Of a stretch of DNA of 11,620 bases, positions 1,534-11,620 are shown in pieces. Each line of letters opens with the position of its first letter. Within the stretch, counting starts at the first letter, position 1. The notes under the pieces were generated by a model. That model made no database searches. It was not told where the DNA came from and was given only the letters and a program-made list of their open reading frames with translations. Location of the stretch: positions 1 through 11,620 of the forward strand of contig PITI01000493.1 of assembly GCA_004325065.1 (NCBI GenBank), given 5' to 3'. This DNA is from Hamiltosporidium magnivora. Its lineage: Eukaryota > Microsporidia > Dubosqiidae. The translations under genes were made by a program, and so were the position numbers.

Positions 1534-3027
1534 ATGCCAATAAGAGGATTTGACATTCTCAAGAAACACATCGTAATCACAGCAAAGCGACCAGCTGCTG
1601 TCTTAAAAGATACACGTTTCTGTGTCGATGGTTTCTGGTTTCTTAAGCGTTACGCACTTCCAAGCAATGCCTCATCAGCATACGTCTTTGGTCTTGATTT
1701 TCTTACACCGATTCAAAAATTTATATCTTTTGTTCAGAACTATAGTATAGATGTACTTTGGATTTGGGACGGTATTCCGATAAAATCCAGCAAAACAGAT
1801 GAATATTTTGAAAAGGCGATTCACGCTTATCAATCCAATGATTTTAGTATTTTCAACAGTCATTTACGAAGATCGATTGAATTCGAAGAATATGTAATAC
1901 CGATTACCGAATTACTTAGAAGTTCAAATATTAGTGTTATTCGTGCTCCATATTGTGCGATGGCACAGGCTTCTTATTTATCTAAACTAGGATTGTGCTC
2001 ATACGTCTTTGCACCAACAGATTTTTTACTTTTTGAAGATGGCGAAAAACTTGTCACTGATTTTTGCAATTTTAAAGATATTTGCACGCAGGTCGAGATA
2101 ATTACACGAAGTGAAATTTTACACAATTTAAAATTGAATTTTTATCGGTTTCAAAGTTACTCACTTCTTCTTGGTTGTGAATTTTGTCCGACTATTCCTC
2201 CCTTTTCCACCAATTTTGATATTAATTCTGTCATTTCAATTGTTGGTGGGTATGAATCTGTTTATTCAGCAGCAAGAAAATGTATGGAACAGGTTTACAA
2301 TACATCGTCTGATTCTATTATTGTGGAAGGGTATTTAAAAATGTTTGTGACGGCCAAGTCACTTTTAAAATTTCATCCGGTAATGAAAGAAAACGGGGCG
2401 GTTTTACCATTGAATGAAATAGATGTTCCATCTGGAATTGAATGTATTTTCGGGGAAAGATATGCAGATTCGTTTTACGAAAAATTATTTAATGTTGAGG
2501 TGTCTCCATTAAATGCTCCTGATTGGTCAGAAAATTTTTATTCTTCAAAAGATAAAACAAGTGAAAACAAAAACAATGAAAAACAAAATATTTCATCCGA
2601 AAGGAAATTAGACACTTTGGATTCTACGCTTGACTCTACCGACATTTTTTTAATGAAGAAAATGTTTGAAAAAGATTATTTTTCAAAAAATATTCTTCTT
2701 AAACTTCTAATTTTTTGTAATTTTTCTGTTCAAGATAAATTAAAAAAAACTTTTTTTAAATCACCACCAATCTTTGAATCTTTCATATACGAATCAAATA
2801 TTGATATTCTAAGATTTGTTAGAATATTAAGAAATGAAATGCTTATAAATTTGCCAAGATTTGATTTGAAATATAAAAATTTTAATATTCAAAATTCTTG
2901 TTTTTTGGAACAAAATAAGGAAGATTATCAAAAGTATAGAAAATATTTTGAAGAAATTAAACCCGTAGTTAAAAGCATTGGAATAAATATCGAAGAAATA
3001 GATGAGTATTTAAGCGGAATGCAGTAG
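1534..3027 (+). CDS. MKT1: MKT1-like XPG-fold protein (nuclease-dead post-transcriptional regulator)
   Basis: A 497-residue protein read from ATG 1534. The frame can be extended five codons to a TTG, but an upstream in-frame TAA at 1471 and the adjacent CCCC motif favour the ATG. Residues ~1-90 form an XPG N-like domain, with Asp32 in CVDGFWFL and Asp79 in WIWDG matching the first two metal-binding positions. Residues ~137-170 match the XPG-I region (APYCAMAQASYL, then APTDFLLF), and ~211-224 match the following GCD-type segment (LLLGCEFCPTIPPF). The two catalytic glutamates of the APxExEA motif are replaced by Cys141 and Met143. One Asp of the next pair is also lost; only Asp163 remains. That pattern fits Mkt1, a fungal XPG-fold protein that, with Pbp1, controls mRNA fate in the cytoplasm. 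A Ser/Asn/Lys-rich linker (~333-370) precedes a helical C-terminal part. At 497 residues it is shorter than yeast Mkt1 (about 830), as expected for a reduced genome. No neighbouring gene forms an operon-like unit. Its first ~300 bases are richer in G+C than the rest of the gene. Confidence 0.85.
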   Translation: MPIRGFDILKKHIVITAKRPAAVLKDTRFCVDGFWFLKRYALPSNASSAYVFGLDFLTPIQKFISFVQNYSIDVLWIWDGIPIKSSKTDEYFEKAIHAYQSNDFSIFNSHLRRSIEFEEYVIPITELLRSSNISVIRAPYCAMAQASYLSKLGLCSYVFAPTDFLLFEDGEKLVTDFCNFKDICTQVEIITRSEILHNLKLNFYRFQSYSLLLGCEFCPTIPPFSTNFDINSVISIVGGYESVYSAARKCMEQVYNTSSDSIIVEGYLKMFVTAKSLLKFHPVMKENGAVLPLNEIDVPSGIECIFGERYADSFYEKLFNVEVSPLNAPDWSENFYSSKDKTSENKNNEKQNISSERKLDTLDSTLDSTDIFLMKKMFEKDYFSKNILLKLLIFCNFSVQDKLKKTFFKSPPIFESFIYESNIDILRFVRILRNEMLINLPRFDLKYKNFNIQNSCFLEQNKEDYQKYRKYFEEIKPVVKSIGINIEEIDEYLSGMQ

Positions 3028-3072: not shown

Positions 3073-3232
3073 TATCATTTAATTTAAATTTCTATTCCCC
3101 AAATATTTTTATTTTTCGTGGTTTCTTGTATTAAATTTTCAAATATAAATAATTTCTTTTAAATATTTTAATCATATTTTTACTATCAAAACATGAAATA
3201 GTGTAAAAAATTAAGAATATTCAACAAAAATT

Positions 3233-3364
3233 ATGGAAGAGGACATCCACACTAAAAAAATAAGTGCTTGGAATTTTTTGGAGAAATTATGTAAAAAACA
3301 TTTGATTGATGGTTGGCGAGATGAACCAAAACCTGAATTTTTGTTTGTGTCAGTATTTGTGTAA
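3233..3364 (+). CDS. Hypothetical 43-residue open frame, perhaps a gene fragment
   Basis: The frame starts with ATG (MEEDIHTKKIS...) and ends with TAA at 3362-3364. The product is hydrophilic, with a mixed-charge Trp-containing core (WNFLEKLCKK, then DGWRDEPKPEF). This composition is unlike translated AT-rich noise and looks like a piece of a real protein. I do not recognise a family; a decayed transposase or the start of a larger broken gene are both possible. It begins about 205 bases after the MKT1-like gene, at the left edge of a GC-richer island that extends to ~3885. Confidence 0.3.
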   Translation: MEEDIHTKKISAWNFLEKLCKKHLIDGWRDEPKPEFLFVSVFV

Positions 3365-3397
3365 GGAGGGATGATCTACAAAAACGTTAAATTTTTT

Positions 3398-3885
3398 CTA
3401 AAAACCTATGATATTGTTTTTCATGAAACTAGATTGAAAAACACAGGTGAAGTTATATGAAATCACCATGCCGAATCACGGAAATCTAAACTAGCTCAGT
3501 TGGGTCAGTAGATCTAGGACCTGGAAGCTACGAAAAAACATACCTTTAAAACCCAATAGGTAGGTTATACCTTTTACTATGACATTGTACTGTTTAAGTA
3601 GACATCACGTAACTTGCCACGAAATTTTAGTTGAATTATAATCGTTTTTTAAAGTTTAAAGTAAGTGCCAAGGCGAGTTTTGATTTGAGTTTACACACCA
3701 TGCTACAGACATCCACAAAAATCTGGCTACTGCATCACCTATTAAATGAGTTCTACACACCTTTTAGAAGAAAATATTTGGACAATATGGCTCATTAGAG
3801 GAACCATTGAAGTATTGGGGGCATAGTTATCTATGTTAAACTCAGAACTACTTAAATGCCATAAGAACAATATAAAACATGTCAT
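3398..3885 (-). pseudogene. Broken gene for a hydrophobic, possibly secreted protein
   Basis: On the minus strand an ATG at 3885 opens a 47-codon frame that begins like a signal peptide (MTCFILFLWHLSSSEF), continues through DNYAPNTSM and ends at 3742. Near 3760, one frame over, coding-like sequence continues (CRTHLIGDAVARFLW, then MSVAWCVNSNQNSPW). It goes on to a stop at 3398-3400 with internal stops at 3656-3658, 3605-3607 and 3491-3493. One frameshift plus several stops would explain the whole as a decayed gene. The region is visibly less AT-rich than its flanks, which supports former coding. No family is recognised. A short plus-strand frame (3700-3798) overlaps, so the strand is likely but not certain. 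Confidence 0.35.
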
Positions 3886-4341
3886 TTGTATAGAAATATG
3901 CTAAATTACTAAGTAAAATTTACTCAAAAATAATATATAAAATTCTCATAAAATATTATTTTTTATTCTAACCTACAAGTAAATCTCACTAAATTTTTCG
4001 ACTTATTAAATTCTAAAGCTTCAAAGACGAGTAACAGAATAGAAATATTTTAAGATACAATTTAAATAAATACTATTTAAGTGGTTTTTATTTCAGAATA
4101 CATAATTAAAATTATATCTAAAATTCACCATAATAATTATATATACAATACTTCGACCATAAATATATATATATGGTTTACAAATTAGTTATTTCACATG
4201 AAGAGTTATATTAACTTCGATTTATTAAAATCTATTATGTGAAAGTATAGAAGAAACGTGGTTATATATAAATTAAAATATATTTCTTCTACTTGTTTAT
4301 ATTTTGAGTCATTTATTAAGAAATTAGAAACAAATTGACAA
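3886..4341. other. AT-rich spacer with one palindrome
   Basis: No coding-like frame is seen. It contains a 22-bp near-perfect palindrome at 4156-4177, reading ACCATA, an AT alternation, then TATGGT. The function is unknown, and it could simply reflect an AT microsatellite. Confidence 0.5.
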
Positions 4342-4635
4342 TCAGTTTTTGATTCTAATATTATTAATTATCTTTATGAATTCTTTCTCAACAAAAGTTC
4401 TCTCTTTGGGATTTAACATTCTAAATACATTTTCATTCTAACCATTAGTAAAGGTATCTGTTTTATATGTACCATTTATATGTGTAACAGATCTACCAAA
4501 TCTTAAATAAGTATCCGCTTTAGCCCTTTCTGCTCCTGCTTGAAACAAAGGATAACATTTATCAAAAAGTGAAGATTTTATACCGAGAAATAAAAGAAGC
4601 AGAAATAATATCCTATTTTTAGAATTATCAAACGT
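4342..4635 (-). pseudogene. Broken paralogue of the small secreted LRFGRS protein
   Basis: A minus-strand frame of 97 codons with one internal TAG (4438-4440) and no ATG. An ACG at 4635 sits where a start would be expected, which suggests a lost start codon. The product begins with a clear signal-peptide core (RILFLLLLFLGIKSS). A cysteine in FDKC follows, then AERAKADTYLRFGRSVT, and after the stop a basic helical tail (NPKERTFVEKEF). It aligns without gaps to the intact protein at 8722-8979. IKS, the cysteine and LRFGRS all fall at the same spacing, with 16 residues between Cys and Leu in both. The LRFGRS codons lie at 4489-4506. Leu-Arg-Phe-Gly-Arg is the mark of animal RFamide neuropeptide precursors, and Lys before ADTYLRFG would be a possible cleavage site. 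Whether any product is made is doubtful. Stop readthrough or a non-ATG start are alternatives to pseudogene status. Confidence 0.55.
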
Positions 4636-4687
4636 ATTTCTACTTTTAAAATAATTAATTAAAAGTATAAATTAAATATCAAAATAT

Positions 4688-4809
4688 AATCTTTCTTTCA
4701 TATATTTATAGATTTTATAATCCGTCGTTCAAATATTTATAGATTTAAATCTTTCGTGTATATATTTATAGATTTTATAATCTTTCGTTCATATATTTAA
4801 GATTTTTTA
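4688..4809. repeat. Tandem repeat, four ~31-bp units
   Basis: Four imperfect copies start at 4688, 4719, 4748 and 4779, so the spacings are 31, 29 and 31 bases. Each copy follows the pattern AATCTTTCGTTCATATATTT then ATAGATTTTAT with a few substitutions and a 2-base deletion in the second copy. The array ends about 50 bases upstream of the broken LRFGRS gene, read on the minus strand, and so occupies its promoter region. Confidence 0.8.
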
Positions 4810-5837
4810 GTGCCTGAATTGGCAAATTAATTAGAATTAAAAACTATATTTAGAAATTTAAATTTAATGTGTTTTTAAACTACTTAAGTTGAAAAGTTTA
4901 AGTCAATTTAATATGAAAGGAAAAAATGTTTTATAATTAAAAAAAAATCTTAAAATAACTATTTTGGTTCAACGTTATATAACTGATATGCGATAATATT
5001 AGAAAAACTTAGTTTAATTTGAGAGTGTTTAAATTTTTAGCTTTTATTTTTTAGTAGTTTTTATAATTTTTTAACTAAGTAACAAACAAGCTATTTCTTT
5101 GCAAATTAAGATTTTGAATATTATTTTTATAAGTTTAGATATATTTTTTAAGATTTTGTAATATATAATAAAATAATGGCCTCTTTGTACATTTCAATTC
5201 GTTTCTTAACAATTTAACTTTGTGACTAAAATTAACATTCTTAAATTTTCATATGATTTCTGGTATAATTTAGTACTTTTTTGTAATTAAATTCTAAAAA
5301 TAGTATATAGTAGTCGAAAACAGCTTTCATATAATAATATTTACGATAAAAGCATTGATATCTATACATATATCACATACATATAAGATGTATTTTATAT
5401 CTTTTAAACCTTATTAATTACCATGAACAAATTAATTTCTAACCAATTTTTAAATCTCAATATTTCAAACGAAATAAAAGAGTTTGGTAGTTAAAGTTGA
5501 TATTTCTTCTCTATTGTTATTTAAACTATATTTAATATGTTTAATATTTCATTTTTATGAGTTTAATGTTGTTCGATTTCATATTCAATTACTTTTACAA
5601 TAAATTTTTACAAATAGTAAGTTTTAAATTCATTGTTTGAATCATACTATTATCAAAAGCAAGTATATTTTTATATCGGGTTGTTTAATGCCGACTTATT
5701 GTAAAATTTTAAAAAAGTTAAAAATACTTTTTTTAATGTTTCAGAAAGTAACAAATGAAACGTCTTTGATTTTCGTTTTTCTATCTAAACTATAGCACAG
5801 AAAATTTGTTTTAAATTTTAAATTCTAGAGCTAAAAA
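4810..5837. other. AT-rich region, no gene seen
   Basis: About 1 kb of highly AT-rich DNA with frequent stops in all six frames. I saw no coding-like stretch, no RNA gene and no repeat worth naming. Confidence 0.55.
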
Positions 5838-6141
5838 CTACAAAAAAATCCTAGTATTTGCTTTATTGTTCAAAAAACATAAATATTTCTTTAAATAGGT
5901 TTTCATATGACTCGAGTCTATTTTAGTGTATGGAAATCTAAAACCGCTTTTATGGAATATAATAAAATATTGTGGCTTGCCACTATTTAAATTACATCTT
6001 AAAATGTTATTTCATCATCGGTTTACAGAAAGCTTTAAAATAAATCTGTTTTTTCTTTGAAAAATATCTTATTAGCTTCCTACATTCCCTATCAGTAATT
6101 CAAAAGCAATTATTATGCATTGCTGATGGCAAAATTTTCAT
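5838..6141 (-). pseudogene. Possible decayed coding remnant
   Basis: On the minus strand an ATG at 6141 starts a short frame (MKILPSAMHNNC) ending in TGA at 6100-6102. The same frame continues as a basic stretch (DRECRKLIRYFSKKK, then AFCKPMMK). One frame over, 57 codons are open from 6011 to 5838 (NLNSGKPQYFIIFHKSG, then FRFPYTKIDSSHMK). The residue mix looks coded rather than random, but length alone is not significant at this base composition. A 27-codon plus-strand frame at 5907-5990 competes. No family is recognised. Confidence 0.2.
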
Positions 6142-6690
6142 AAAAAGTGAAAATGCATGTTTTACTTTAACTTAAAAATATTTTCTATGTTTAGATCAGT
6201 TATAACTGAAATATTAATTTGGTTTAGTGTTTGGCTCTGCTATAAAACAAGTTAAACAAAAAATTGAGCACAAATGTAAAATAAAAATTTGATTCAAAAA
6301 AGCTCTATATTTACCTTTACCAAATACAAACCCGATTTTAATTTCTAAAATATTTCGATTCAATATACCTTACGATTCTAATAACGCAAATTATCCTTTG
6401 CAAAGTAATATAAGTGTACTATTTCATTTTGTATCTTTTTATACATTGCAAAGATGATAAATATATCGATTATTACAAGAAAAAAAGTATAAATTTTGAA
6501 ATAAAAAAGATTGAGTAGATATATCAAATTATTGGTATATTTGAATTTTTTAAAATCAATGATTTTTTTCATTTATTAGCTCAATACATAAAATCTATTT
6601 AAAACCCACTAATATCATTGTAAAACAACTTGAATTAATTATATTTTACCGTATATTTCTTGTATTTCTAGTATATTGTGTATTTTTATA
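6142..6690. other. AT-rich region, no convincing gene
   Basis: A 64-codon minus-strand frame at 6378-6572 starts with ATG, but it is almost only Ile, Phe, Leu, Lys, Asn and Tyr, as expected from translated AT-rich noise. A 32-codon plus frame at 6157-6255 is of the same kind. I accept neither as a gene. Confidence 0.5.
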
Positions 6691-6725
6691 ATATCATTAA
6701 GTGGTTTTTAAAACCTTAATGATAT
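6691..6725. repeat. Long inverted repeat (16-bp arms, 2-base bulge)
   Basis: The left arm is ATATCATTAA, then GT as a bulge, then GGTTTT. After a single base the right arm reads AAAACC then TTAATGATAT. All 16 arm bases pair. With essentially no loop this is a DNA palindrome able to form a cruciform, or an RNA hairpin if transcribed. It ends 22 bases from the broken frame at 6748-6936, on that frame's 3' side. Confidence 0.75.
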
Positions 6726-6747
6726 GAAATACGCTGAATAAATTTTA

Positions 6748-6936
6748 TTAGAGTTTAGAAGAATAACCAGCATTAAAAACTATCTGGTTGGTAATGAGTA
6801 CGTAAAATTGGTGTAAAATTAATTGTTGCCATTTTTGTGGGATAAAAACTACACTGAATCTATAGATGGCCAATCCCCTATAATTACGAGTTCTGATAGA
6901 TTAAAAGAAACAAATAGAAAACCTCCATTTTTTCAT
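6748..6936 (-). pseudogene. Short broken frame, possible remnant of a secreted protein
   Basis: A minus-strand ATG at 6936 opens MKKWRFSICFF, which resembles the start of a signal peptide. One TAA follows, then 50 open codons (SIRTRNYRGLAIYRFSV... to NAGYSSKL). The YRF about 17 residues after the cysteine recalls the Cys-to-LRF spacing of the two LRFGRS proteins, but the Gly-Arg is absent and the match is weak. The plus strand is open across the same bases (6823-6954), so only one of the two readings can be right, if either. Confidence 0.2.
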
Positions 6937-6954
6937 CCTCGACTCGGAATGTAA
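6823..6954 (+). CDS. Open frame ending in a FHPRLG motif
   Basis: The frame is open from a TAA at 6820-6822 to a TAA at 6952-6954, 43 codons, with no ATG near its start. The product is hydrophilic (DKNYTESIDGQSPIITSSD, then RLKETNRKPPFFHPRLGM). Phe-x-Pro-Arg-Leu-Gly is the C-terminal signature of insect pyrokinin/PBAN-type peptides, and an Arg-Lys pair lies six residues upstream of the Phe in FHPRLG. In known precursors the Gly is followed by a basic residue; here Met and a stop follow. The lack of a start codon or signal peptide means it would have to be a fragment. Confidence 0.2.
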   Translation: MLPFLWDKNYTESIDGQSPIITSSDRLKETNRKPPFFHPRLGM

Positions 6955-7530
6955 AAGCGAACTCAAAAAATAATTAACTAAGTAAGATTTAATGTGAAAA
7001 ATATAAACCTTTATTGATGAAAAGTTTTTTGTATGTATCTTTTCAGTTCGAATGGTTAGTATATATTTTTGCTAAAAATAGCTGAGAATTCATTCAAATT
7101 TTAATGTTTATAGAGATATTATTTACAAATGATTGCAAAATTTTAGAAGCCTGTTATTATGCTGTTGTCATAATTTTCCCAGGTAATAATTTCAAATTTA
7201 AGTCTCAAAAATTATAAATCAGTTAATCCATAAACTTTTTAGAACCTTTCGCTGTGTATTGTACAAAAAATTAATAATAAATGAAATTATGAATATTTAG
7301 ATTGTAAACTATAGCGCGATTGTCTAGTTTATTTAGTGTATTTTTTATATAATTATATTTTGAAACAAAGTCATTCAAGAGCCATAAAATTGGATTTTTA
7401 TCTTTCTAGTTTTCAAAGACATTCTTATTATGATTAATATCGTATTTGTTTACAAAAAAGCCATTTAGCATATTTTTTAATACAATAGTCTTAACAACTT
7501 AATTTGCAATATTAAAAATCGAACATTTTA
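6955..7530. other. AT-rich region with only scattered short open stretches
   Basis: No feature that I accept. Short minus-strand stretches around 7385-7490 read like coding sequence (for example MSLKTRKIKIQFYG, and CIKKYAKWLFCKQIRY in another frame). They might be further decay products of the pseudogene to the right, but stops and frame changes are too frequent to join them. Confidence 0.4.
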
Positions 7531-8140
7531 TTATTCAAAATAAGTAAATTTATTTTTATTTAAATACCATAAAATACATCCAATCGTAATATTTGAACCA
7601 ATATATTGCAAATAAATTGGCGTGGTTACTCAAAACCAAAAATTTTAAACTGAATATCTCAGATTTTATGCGATTATTTTTACTTCTCGCAATTTCTTCT
7701 TTTCGCTTATAATATATCGTATTCGTATAAAATTAATTCTGACCCGAGCCTAGATAACTTATTTTGTTACGACATTTTCATTTACTAAACACACAAATTC
7801 ACGATTGTTTTTATAAAAAATCTTGTCAGTTACTTTTTTAGTTTGTTCATATAATTTCTATGGAGTTTTTACGGTATAATCACTTTTTATTGTTGAAAAT
7901 TACTTTAAATATTCCTTTCTTATTTCTTACATCATATACAGCTGTTTCTATAATTTGTTCTATTTCTTATGCTCTATATTTAATAGCAGTGAATCTCTTT
8001 TTATCAAAGAGCCCATTACATATATATTGAAGATTTTTTTGAGACGTTTGATGGAAGAGAATCCATATTTTTTTGTTGATACTTTGTGATAAAACCATTT
8101 TAAAAAAATATGTTTTTAAATTCATTATATAATGAGACAT
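7531..8140 (-). pseudogene. Decayed gene of unknown family, about 200 codons
   Basis: An ATG at 8140 opens a 57-codon frame (MSHYIMNLKTYFFKM..., NKKIWILFHQTSQKN, FDKKRFTAIKYRA) that stops at 7967-7969. The same frame continues for 28 codons (EIEQIIETAVYDVRNKK, then GIFKVIFNNKK) to a TGA at 7880-7882. After a frame change near 7830 it goes on with EQTKKVTDKIFYKNNRE and FVCLVNENVVTK, then SEKKKLREVKII, and a last stretch ITIGCILWYLNKNK to a stop at 7531-7533. The mixed charged and hydrophobic composition over ~600 bases is unlike noise and points to one protein broken by several stops and at least one frameshift. I cannot name the family; a transposase is one possibility among many. A 56-codon plus-strand frame at 7860-8030 overlaps and looks like its antisense shadow. 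Confidence 0.45.
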
Positions 8141-8721
8141 GTTTGATTCATGGATCTTCTTTACTCAATCTAATTAATTTTAGGCATTCAAAATATAAAG
8201 TTATAGAAATTTAACTAATATACTCTAAATAGCATCTTAGAAATACTTAAATCAAGGCTTAAGCCACCCCGAAGTATTCCCCTAGTGAATATATTCACGT
8301 TTAGAAGAAAAATTTGGCTTTTCATTATTGTTGAACAGTTAAACAAAAAAATTGGATACAAAAACGTTGATTTCATCTTGGTAATATTTTCATTGTGTAA
8401 GTTTATCGAATGATTTTAGGATATATAGTTAAAAATTTATAACAATGTTATTTAATTTGAAAAAAAGCTAATGTGGATTAAAAATAGATCTATATGTTTT
8501 AATAATATAAAGTTTATATAATATTCCTGCTTTTCCATAAATTTTTGTATATATTTGTTAATTTCAATTGTTTTAAAAGCACATACCCGAACTTTCTTAC
8601 TGCCCCATATCATCTATTTGTGTTTTATTAGTTTTAAGATTCATTACAGATTTGCTTATCTTCCTTATCTCTTTATAAAGAGAATAAAGTTTTATAGATT
8701 AAAAACAGTGTTTATTCTGAT
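8141..8721. other. AT-rich spacer with paired palindromes, no convincing gene
   Basis: A 36-codon minus frame at 8215-8325 starts with ATG (MKSQIFLLNVNIF...) but has no recognisable feature. A 60-codon plus frame at 8555-8737 starts only at a TTG. On the minus strand at ~8600-8700 a frame with KEIRKISKSVMNLKTNK and TQIDDMGQ is open for ~34 codons. It could be a detached tail of the secreted protein gene, but there is no evidence to join them. Confidence 0.4.
8256..8298. repeat. Two perfect palindromes flanking a C-rich segment
   Basis: GGCTTAAGCC (8256-8265) and GTGAATATATTCAC (8285-8298) are perfect palindromes 19 bases apart. Between them lie two CCCC runs (in ACCCCGAAG and TTCCCCTA). This is a marked break in AT-rich surroundings, 115-160 bases upstream of the start of the decayed gene at 7531-8140. 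The layout resembles a regulatory or protein-binding site, but no function can be assigned. Confidence 0.4.
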
Positions 8722-8979
8722 TCATTTATTGCATTGATGATTTCTTTTTCCAGCAAATTTATTTTCATTTTCAGACAACTGATTATATATATTTTTAAAG
8801 TTATTATCCGAAGATATTTGTATTACCTTCTCATCATTTTCTTCTGCAATAGATCTACCGAATCTTAAGGGTTCTCTCGGAGTGGTTTTTTCACAAACGC
8901 TATTTCTTATTGAGAAACAAGCATCTACAAATGTAGATTTAATATATACAAAGAAAATAAATAAATTTAAACCCATCAT
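8722..8979 (-). CDS. Small secreted protein with LRFGRS (RFamide-precursor-like)
   Basis: An 85-residue protein starting MMGLNLFIFF, with an in-frame TAG eight codons upstream and TGA at the end. Residues ~1-20 are a signal peptide, probably cleaved near Ala20, so it should enter the secretory pathway. Then come Cys21 and Cys29, and TTPREPLRFGRS at residues 32-43. The acidic, Asn-rich spacer (EENDEK) leads to KFAGKR at residues 74-79 and a short end with Cys83. Leu-Arg-Phe-Gly-Arg is how animal FMRFamide-like peptides appear in their precursors, where Gly supplies the C-terminal amide and cleavage is at the basic residue. Gly-Lys-Arg at 77-79 is a second canonical amidation site. The protein is paralogous to the broken gene at 4342-4635. 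No lectin, protease or other known domain is seen. LRFGRS might instead be a conserved sorting or binding motif. The residue mix is not that of AT-rich noise. Confidence 0.6.
   Translation of the reverse strand: MMGLNLFIFFVYIKSTFVDACFSIRNSVCEKTTPREPLRFGRSIAEENDEKVIQISSDNNFKNIYNQLSENENKFAGKRNHQCNK
8725..8730 (-). terminator. AATAAA overlapping the end of the secreted protein gene
   Basis: On the minus strand the last codons read TGC AAT AAA TGA, so a perfect AATAAA abuts the stop codon. Very short or overlapping 3' ends are known in compact microsporidian genes. The same bases encode Asn-Lys, so chance is a real alternative. Confidence 0.3.
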
Positions 8980-8993
8980 GAAATATGTTGCAT
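8976..8993 (-). promoter_or_regulatory. Upstream mini-frame overlapping the start of the secreted protein gene
   Basis: An ATG at 8993 starts a five-codon frame (MQHIS) whose TGA overlaps the first ATG of the secreted protein as ATGA. If the transcript includes it, termination there could reduce or couple initiation at the main start, or favour the second of the two adjacent ATG codons. Whether the transcript reaches this far is unknown. Confidence 0.25.
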
Positions 8994-11495
8994 GATCCTA
9001 TGGAAACTTTTAAATCGATTAATACATGTAAATTTGTTATTTACAGTTATAATTTAAATTTAAATTTTCTAATATTCTAACTTATTGTAAACTTTAGTTT
9101 CTGTTTTTTAATTTAAAAAAAAATTTTACAGCTTCAAATTTATAAAATGTATCGATTTAAGTTAGTTCATATATAAATAATGAATTTTTAAATTAATTAC
9201 TTCATTATAGAAGATATTTGTTGTAAATTTAGGGTATGTAAAGCCAGAAATTTTAATTGAGTTTAATATATCCAAAAAATTATTATGGAAAAACGTGATT
9301 CTATTTTGAGTAAATTAGGCAAATTTATTCAAACTTTTTTTATTTTACAAAATTAATAGTAATAAGTCAGGAAATAACAATCTAATTACACAACCATATT
9401 AGTCAAGTATGTCTATAATACAAAGTAACTTAAATTGTTAATTTTCACATAAATTAAAATTTTACTTCTAAATTTTTTTAGACTGATTTCTGAAATACTG
9501 TCTAAACTGAAAAATCTAATAAAATTTTAAATTTTTTAATTGAGAACCAGAACAGACAACTAAACATTTAAAAAAAATTTAATTTCTGAAGCTTGAGATA
9601 TACTTTGAAATCTAGCTATATTTTCTTGAGAAATGCTGTTTTTTTTCGACAGAATTTATATTGGTAGAAAATTTTAGAATAAGATAGATTAAATACCGTT
9701 AATACTGTTGGATTTTTCACTGATTAATCCAAAGCACTTTCTTTTCACAAGAATATAAAATATATTTTGCTTAAATACTTTGATTTTGGTTATTTTATAT
9801 GCAACATGAGTTAAGAAAAGTTATACTTGTTCTTAAAAAAACCTCTTTTTCAAGTATTCCTATGTAAAAGTAAATAAGATTTACTTCGCTATCGCATTTT
9901 TGAATTCTATTTTCTAAGCTTTTATAAACATTTAGTTCTGAGTATGAATTTATTCTTAGATAAAGTTAACTTCTTTCTTAGGTATTTTAAGCTCACCGTG
10001 GGAACATGTTACTTCATTATTGTGGTTGTATAGATAGTATTGGTATAAATTTAATGGTTTTATAATAAAATACAATGATATTACATAGAGAGTTATTTTC
10101 AAACAAAATTTATGAATGTGAAACACTCAACAATTATAGGCTCGTACATTTCTAGTTAGTCGGTTTCAACAATTTTTTAAAAAAACTTTATTAAGAAATT
10201 GCGCCCTAAATGTTTGTAATTTAATATATGCTTAGCAAAAAAAATCACTGCTGTATTACAGGATTTTTTACAATTTTTTTTGTGATTCTAATAATTTTTA
10301 GATATCTATTTTAAATAATTTTTTCAACAGCGTCATCCGAATTATTTCGAATACTACAATACTTTATAGTTCAAAAAAATGGCTACTGATTAAAAATAAA
10401 ATCATTGTTTCTGTTAATATCTTTATGAACATTTTACGAGGGTTCACTAAAAAATTCATTCGATTGCATTAATGACTATGGTTTCATCCAATTTTTCTAC
10501 ACACCGAGACACATTTATATCTTAGATCTAACACAAGCAACATCGCTGTTTAACTTGATTTTATACTCTTAATTATTTGAAGTGTGTCATTAAGATGTAT
10601 TGGCTCCTCCTTTTTAGATTTTTATATTTTTTTAATATGCCATGTTAGCATTTTTTGTTATGAAATTCGCAGTTTAAGCCTTATTCTGACCTCTTCCGGA
10701 CAATTTATAATCTAAAAAGACATTTCATGAATTCAAGGCTGTTTTATTATCATTTCTTACGTATGTTCGATGTTATGTTGATTTATACTTTTTAATTATA
10801 TACACAAAATAAATACAAAAGGGTATGGTCGCTGTTGCAATTAATAATTTTTGAGGTCTCTTTGGATTTATATCTAAAAAGATATAACGGCTTTTTATAT
10901 GTTGTTTAAAAAAGTGTCTTGTTTGTCAAGTAATTCTAAATTTGGAATTATACATTTTGAAAAAAAAAATCGTTATATTCATACAGAATTCTATATTTCG
11001 TTATATAATATTCCTTTTAAGCCATTTCATAAACGAAATTTCTTATTTTTAATTTGTTAAGCAAAGATTTTTTTCTACAACTAAGCTTGGTTTTTACCAC
11101 CATAATTGAGTTACATATTAAATTTCTCTCGAAATCTTTTATTGCGTCTAAATTATTACACAATAACTTTTTTATGAGAAAAGGCCTAAATTAAAGCCGA
11201 TGATTCCACCAGTTTCTTCTTTCATTTTCTAACCACATTTTCGGAAAGAATGATATCTCTGTCATAAAAATTTTAAATTGATAAAGAATATCAAAGAACT
11301 CGAGAAATATCAAGAATGATTTTTCGAATAAAGAGAAACCGTCTAATCATGTATTTCGTTATTTCATAAGTTTTGATCAGAATTGCATTGAATGTTATGA
11401 ATAAAATAAATAAATAAGATAAAAAAACCTTTTATTTTCCAAATTCTTTTTTAATTTTCTTGATCATAATTTTTCAAGCGCACTGATATATAGGG
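8994..11495. other. Long AT-rich gene-free region
   Basis: About 2.5 kb without an acceptable gene. The least AT-rich stretch, ~10420-10740, is open in pieces on both strands (plus MNILRGFTKKFIRLH and HTETHLYLRSNTSN; minus KLSGRGQNKA) and may be a badly decayed coding region. A 24-codon minus frame at 11191-11265 (MTEISFFPKMW, NERRNWWNHRL) is another possible scrap. No RNA gene, named mobile element or long repeat is seen. Confidence 0.5.
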
Positions 11496-11620
11496 TTTTT
11501 CGATCAATATAATAATCCTTGCAATCAATATAATAATTTTTCGATCAATATAATAATCCTTGCAATCAATATAATAATTTTTCGAACAATATAATAATCC
11601 TTGCAATCAATATAATAATC
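11496..11620. repeat. Satellite array, 41-bp unit made of two ~20-bp halves
   Basis: Three copies of a 41-bp unit start at TTTTTCGATCAAT and repeat with exact 41-base spacing (CGATCAAT or its variant at 11501, 11542 and 11583). Each unit holds two half-units sharing ATCAATATAATAAT, one followed by CCTTG and the other by TTTTT. Copies are almost identical except CGAACAAT in the third. The array runs off the right end, so its true length is unknown. Confidence 0.92.

Follow-up and report, generated by a model that had tools for sequence, protein, structure and literature searches.

Hamiltosporidium magnivora, a microsporidian, appears to carry a gene for a small secreted-type protein in which the motif LRFGRS is identical to that of the H. 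tvaerminnensis orthologue and of a diverged, broken sister copy in the same contig, and in which the residues ahead of this motif fit the neuropeptide FLP-2 of nematodes. On the basis of these features we tentatively favour, at a little under an even chance, its reading as a secreted RFamide-type precursor that would yield TTPREPLRF-amide. New in this analysis are the sister copy that shares the motif, the likeness of the candidate peptide to FLP-2 and, in the tail, a further amidation-type site; Table 1 collects the coordinates of all features.

Table 1. Features of the window discussed in the text
Feature	Position	Strand	Evidence
XPG_I-domain gene (497 aa)	1534-3027	plus	Pfam PF00867, 32.6 bits; sole known-domain gene of the window
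Diverged sister copy, broken	4345-4638	minus	Protein search and ungapped alignment; N piece 4441-4638, C piece 4345-4437
LRFGRS of the sister copy (ADTYLRF-GR)	4489-4506	minus	Six-frame RFG scan, alignment
Small secreted-type protein gene, 85 aa plus stop	8722-8979	minus	ATG-started ORF, 92% identical orthologue, codon score
Hydrophobic N terminus, putative signal peptide (residues 1-20)	8920-8979	minus	Sequence; hydrophobic start common to sister copy
Candidate peptide cassette TTPREPLRF-GR (residues 32-42), K31 in front	8854-8886	minus	FLP-2 consensus fit, library match
LRFGRS core (residues 38-43)	8851-8868	minus	Identical in H. tvaerminnensis protein and sister copy
C-terminal tail (residues 44-85), one low-confidence predicted helix (58-77)	8725-8850	minus	AlphaFold2, mean pLDDT 57
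Gly-Lys-Arg (residues 77-79), second amidation and dibasic-type site	8743-8751	minus	Both species' proteins

A small gene shared by two Hamiltosporidium species

The window, that is, the whole stretch of 11,620 nucleotides analysed here, is contig C493 of the genome searched (10.74 Mb in 644 contigs). The product of its XPG_I gene matches H. magnivora CWI39_0732p0010 with 100% identity across 497 aa, and of the ten named matches of this protein with E values no worse than 1e-3, nine come from microsporidia and the tenth from the yeast-like Saitoella. Immediately 5′ of the ATG of this gene stands CACCCCT (1527-1533), which we take to resemble the CCC element preceding microsporidian start codons; the 120 bases 5′ of the ATG of the 85-aa ORF are, unlike those of the XPG gene, without CCC. 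AT-rich tandem arrays lie at 4685-4806 (period about 31 bases) and at 11496-11620 (period about 41 bases), the second reaching the contig end. Rfam and tRNA scans gave no lead, and neither did viral and prokaryote contig scans.

An earlier note, made from the DNA alone, had described a small, intact, ATG-started ORF at 8722-8979 with a signal peptide and, after it, TTPREPLRFGRS. A hydrophobic N terminus and this sequence (residues 32-43) are present in an 85-aa protein that opens with MMGLNLFIFFVYIKSTFVDACFSIRNSVCEKTTPREPLRFGRSIAEENDEKV, on the minus strand, a strand which that note had left out; translated in frame, the plus strand of the same interval has four stops. The signal peptide is putative, judged from hydrophobic character and from the alignment with the sister copy. 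Length alone is modest evidence for a gene here, since an ATG-started ORF of at least 85 aa appears in 16 of 200 dinucleotide shuffles of positions 3101-11620. In its own frame the ORF has a codon score of 0.104 bits per codon, the highest of the six; this value is matched or beaten by 20 of 755 open frames of presumed non-coding sequence (8 of 193 among those of at least 60 aa), and among coding pieces 34 of 98 reach it. The ORF closes with AATAAA as its last two codons (8725-8730, minus strand), and this hexamer recurs 5 bases past the stop (8711-8716, minus strand), a possible close poly(A) signal that is weak given the AT-rich DNA.

The strongest evidence that this ORF is probably a gene is its equal-length orthologue, CWI37_0480p0020 of H. 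tvaerminnensis (85 aa, 92% identity), the only relative found among 5.8 billion proteins and one that supports the microsporidian origin proposed in the note. That search requires shared 5-residue words and similar length, and within this reach no animal protein was returned by either the single-sequence query (1 candidate) or a three-row profile (13 candidates). From H. magnivora to H. tvaerminnensis the two proteins differ by C29R, E30K, K31N, P34S, Q82R, C83I and N84D, and four of these differences lie within residues 29-34 (8878-8895, minus strand), just before REPLRFGRS. REPLRFGRS itself is unchanged, a conservation that is not informative by itself because there are merely seven changes in all.

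No Pfam neuropeptide family, and no Pfam domain above cut-off, was found for the 85-aa protein. It is thus both clade-restricted and without a known domain, as are clade-specific secreted microsporidian proteins, and its sequence suggests a small secreted-type family so far found only in Hamiltosporidium. Several other leads were dropped. A Pfam row for CD59 (E 0.39) led nowhere, and six cyclodipeptide synthase rows in a sequence search of the PDB (E 0.048-0.51) were taken as chance. The PEXEL export motif is R-x-L-x-E/Q/D; RSIAE in the H. magnivora protein is merely PEXEL-like, and the sister copy has RSVTH.

A broken sister copy keeps the motif

Across all six frames of the window, RFG occurs in two places only, both on the minus strand, both as LRFGRS and 4.4 kb apart. 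Protein searches of the genome run from either copy, in which only the best candidates were scored, return these two places alone. Aligned without gaps, the ORF and the sister copy are identical at 21 of 75 residues (28%), among them all six of LRFGRS; the further residues in common include L.L...F..IKS...D.C, with IKS[TS]..D.C at and past the end of the hydrophobic segment. The local alignment score of 72 was reached in none of 5,000 full shuffles and in none of 5,000 in which the hydrophobic and polar parts were shuffled separately. Masking the motif gave a score that only 2 of 5,000 shuffles reached, so that the homology of the two copies is independent of the motif.

The sister copy looks broken, as it is without an in-frame ATG ahead of its hydrophobic stretch and has an in-frame TAG at 4438-4440, beyond which its alignment to the ORF runs on. 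Both of its pieces score as coding (0.067 and 0.083 bits per codon). Identity to the ORF by codon position is 36, 44 and 39 of 75, which makes the duplication look old; the DNA of the motif is identical at 17 of 18 bases, and conservation between the two copies is lower in the tail. A transposon origin was considered and set aside, as 1-kb queries around each copy match only themselves, trivial matches aside, and a tandem duplication visible in the flanking DNA fared no better, the best 25 matches listed being only 14-32 bases long. A tblastn search of the window gave nothing besides the two copies below E 0.04 among the matches listed.

LRFGR, and hence x-R-F-G followed by a basic residue, is present in all three copies. 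Sixteen of the 45 ungapped columns used for permutation are identical, and with the six motif columns assigned in advance the probability that all six are identical is 0.001, or 0.00026 within the 30 columns after the hydrophobic segment; a run of at least six identical columns anywhere has a probability of 0.03. The value for assigned columns is a fair one, since the earlier note named the motif without mention of the sister copy; should the motif not count as preassigned, 0.03 is weak. Homologues that keep the signal peptide and lose the RFG-basic motif were what that note had named as counting against it, and the two homologues checked both keep the motif, leaving the proposal unrefuted on this point.

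The nucleotide pattern of the motif is not enriched in the genome: [LF]RFG[RK] has 52 + 52 matches versus 92 + 66 for the reversed pattern, and its two Arg halves have 35 versus 54 and 40 versus 32. This first scan gave 104 matches, 100 of them among the matches listed. Matches with Arg as the second residue number 75 (35 + 40), two being the window's own and five being left out, as their last codon reads only as His or Gln; all others fall within the 75 loci examined (70 + 5). In these loci we found 40 in-frame [LF]RFG[RK] rows (37 + 3), and none of these 40 other rows belongs to a small ORF that opens with an ATG and a hydrophobic stretch and holds the motif apart from that stretch. An ATG stands ahead of the motif in six of the 40, representing four distinct sequences: one of 30 aa in which the motif adjoins the hydrophobic stretch, one of 13 aa, one of 34 aa, and one of 108 aa that ends on the motif and whose start is not hydrophobic.

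The candidate peptide resembles nematode FLP-2

The peptides to which the cassette had been likened are FLP-15 and FLP-21, given as GGPQGPLRFa and GLGPRPLRFa in PMC4196577. The likeness to RFamides holds, but these are not the closest form, as FLP-2 SPREPIRFa is nearer. For nematode FLP-2 (SPREPIRFa and LRGEPIRFa; receptor FRPR-18) PMC4058706 gives the consensus [L/F/V/S/Q][P/R/M][G/R]EP[I/L]RFa; the source table gives FLP-2 for nematodes, arthropods being outside its coverage. TPREPLRF fits this consensus at 7 of 8 positions and is identical to SPREPIRFa at 6 of 8, with T/S and L/I at the other two, and the H. tvaerminnensis form, TSREPLRF, fits the consensus at 6 of 8.

For comparison with a wider set we used a library of 154 published RFamides drawn from entries in PMC4058706, PMC12035899 and PMC3749230. 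The library was restricted to RF-ending peptides, with long krill sequences trimmed, and omits QRFP, PrRP, kisspeptin and some near-duplicate krill NPF/sNPF rows; SPREPIRF was known before it was built. The best match of TPREPLRF is SPREPIRF, with a score of 38, which none of 17 distinct usable genome contexts attains. Of random 5-mers followed by LRF, 0.14% attain it when drawn with its own composition and 0.06% with that of the XPG gene; a larger RFamide library would raise these and all the other fractions given here. The H. tvaerminnensis form scores 30, a value reached by 5.3% and 3.2% of random strings, respectively, and ADTYLRF of the sister copy scores 28 (10.4% and 7.3%), which is not significant. 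The RFamide-type signature is supported by the orthologue, by LRFGRS in the sister copy and by the match of TPREPLRF to FLP-2.

The likeness to FLP-2 extends to a Gly and a basic residue after RF and to a small precursor. C. elegans FLP precursors span 66-184 aa, a range that includes the 85-aa protein, and several hold one copy of one peptide, according to the precursor entries of PMC4196577. The differences are that the protein is microsporidian, has a single RFamide cassette, a monobasic GR site and Thr at the first position, and has Ser for Pro in H. tvaerminnensis; no homology to a whole FLP-2 precursor was found. On sequence, the 85-aa protein appears to have the anatomy of an animal RFamide precursor, and it is not classed as one because whole-precursor homology was sought and not found and it has no Pfam family.

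Arthropod FMRFamide-like peptides (FaLPs) have in common with it a C-terminal x-R-F followed by Gly and a basic residue, and ADTYLRF of the sister copy ends like decapod NYLRFa, whereas the 85-aa protein has Pro, and no aromatic residue, before Leu. As described in the FaLP entries of PMC12035899, these precursors are multicopy, and Daphnia pulex has two FIRFamides, SLRSNFIRFa and SALNKNFIRFa.

A possible route from precursor to amidated peptide

If the protein is a precursor, its hydrophobic N terminus would take it out of the parasite, and a trypsin-like or convertase-type protease would cut after K31 and after R42. A carboxypeptidase would then take off R42, and the host amidating enzyme would convert G41 to the amide, giving TTPREPLRF-amide or EPLRF-amide. 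The target of this peptide in the water flea would be a G-protein-coupled receptor of the RFamide type, and another cut, at G77-K78-R79, may shorten the tail. That the protein is expressed and secreted, each of the cuts, the amidation and the receptor are all inferred. The basic residues ahead of the cassette are K31 in H. magnivora, R29-K30 in H. tvaerminnensis, where a dibasic RK stands in place of CE, and the R and K of AERAK in the sister copy; single basic residues are common.

Gly-Lys-Arg is the classical amidation plus dibasic signal. In the tail, G[KR][KR] occurs in 1.7% of shuffles of the 42 residues and in 1.6% of random 42-mers of XPG-gene composition. The site comes after KFA, not RF, and the aligned residues of the sister copy are VEK; being post hoc, placed after KFA and absent from the sister copy, it lends minor support to the precursor reading. 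AlphaFold2, run on the three-row alignment, predicts helices at 2-30 and 58-77, with pLDDT below 50 at 33-39, 41-55 and 80-85, the cassette lying in that middle stretch between the two helices. Such a model would suit a propeptide and would equally suit many orphan proteins with three sequences, and its mean pLDDT was judged too low to base a fold search on it.

The genome has subtilisin-family (PF00082) genes at two loci, C137 and C42, whose products are candidate parasite-side processing proteases. A search for convertase P-domains, whose control was positive in 1 of 14 genomes, found none in this genome, the subtilisin genes included; the search for the PHM (amidating-enzyme) family had no positive control and says nothing either way. 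Most likely, amidation would have to come from the host, and this raises a problem of compartments. The exported protein of an intracellular parasite meets the vacuole or cytosol first, and convertases and PAM act in the secretory route or extracellularly. Possibly, spill from lysing fat cells or transit via the host ER could bridge the two.

Other explanations of the motif

The main rival, which we consider unlikely, takes LRFGRS as a furin/kexin-like R-x-x-R↓S site that would split a pro-part from a C-terminal effector, with no amidated peptide being made. R-x-x-R is the minimal furin/kexin-like consensus, and R39-F-G-R42↓S43 fits it, with RFGR kept in three copies; the PF00082 genes at two loci and the low-confidence helix predicted in the tail would also suit such a protein. 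However, L38, F40, G41 and S43 are as strictly kept as both Arg, although a site of this kind leaves them free. Furthermore, TPREP before LRF matches an RFamide, and the part that would be the effector, the tail, is less conserved between the copies than the rest.

It is distinctly less probable that the neuropeptide look is a coincidence, LRFGRS being kept by chance or for a structural reason in a fast-evolving secreted protein. This would accommodate the identical run of six or longer in 3% of permutations, the near-identical motif DNA and the absence of genome-wide enrichment; moreover, published RFamides far exceed 154, and bigger libraries give better chance matches. Against coincidence stand two separate tests, one of the motif in the sister copy and one of the FLP-2-like upstream residues, each of which gives about 0.001.

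Microsporidia have acquired animal genes, and the FLP-2-like cassette and precursor-like size would fit the capture of a host or nematode neuropeptide-precursor gene by horizontal transfer, but we regard this as very improbable, given that the search of 5.8 billion proteins, with its need for 5-residue words and similar length, gave no animal match and that the codon score fits the parasite genome. Least credible of all is a chance ORF in AT-rich spacer, for which the equally long ORFs in shuffled spacers, the missing CCC run and the one annotated relative in the protein database (H. tvaerminnensis) would speak, and against which stand the 92% identical orthologue of equal length, the detectable sister copy and the top codon score in the right frame of six.

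Discussion

A secreted RFamide-type precursor is the reading that we favour; the further reading, that the parasite protein is an RFamide mimic aimed at the host, we hold to be less likely than not. Counting against a mimic, the best match is of nematode type while the host is Daphnia, with dissimilar FIRFamides; there is a single RFamide cassette with a monobasic GR site; and the fit is weaker in H. tvaerminnensis and in the sister copy. The earlier note had proposed a neuropeptide mimic secreted by the parasite and processed by host enzymes. That proposal is supported in part. The microsporidian origin and the RFamide signature hold up; the R-x-x-R alternative, the compartment problem and the poorer match of the H. 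tvaerminnensis form speak against treating the release of a host-active peptide by host convertases and amidating enzyme as established.

In the literature consulted, the nearest mechanistic parallel comes from the parasitoid system of Cotesia vestalis. As outlined in PMC12992715, its teratocytes release into the host an sNPF precursor for which one peptide is predicted, and they promote glycogen breakdown in the host fat body. H. tvaerminnensis infects fat and ovarian cells, according to the tissue descriptions in PMC10941049. Common to both would be a parasite-secreted precursor, one RFamide-class peptide and an arthropod host. In Cotesia, however, the gene is an animal parasite's own neuropeptide gene and its product was found in host haemolymph, whereas Hamiltosporidium is fungus-related, intracellular and without a nervous system, and the activity of its protein is a prediction. 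A second comparison is with the host-exposed, clade-specific proteins of Nematocida, which likewise have an N-terminal targeting-type segment, clade restriction, no domain and a paralogue; they form a large family as against the two copies here, and the portions of PMC5423893 consulted describe no conserved RFG-basic cassette. Among titles and the beginnings of abstracts in the mainly open-access literature searched, no report of a microsporidian RFamide or neuropeptide mimic was found.

The mimic reading is directly testable, since the peptides that it predicts are short and can be synthesised and the receptors to be expected in the host are G-protein-coupled. If it is false, the protein is still a well-bounded secreted-type protein of Hamiltosporidium with an unusually conserved processing-type motif. 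If it is true, a fungus-related intracellular parasite would address the peptide-hormone system of its host directly, and there would be a molecular handle on how, in the model host Daphnia magna, vertically transmitted microsporidia may adjust the use of fat and the production of eggs.
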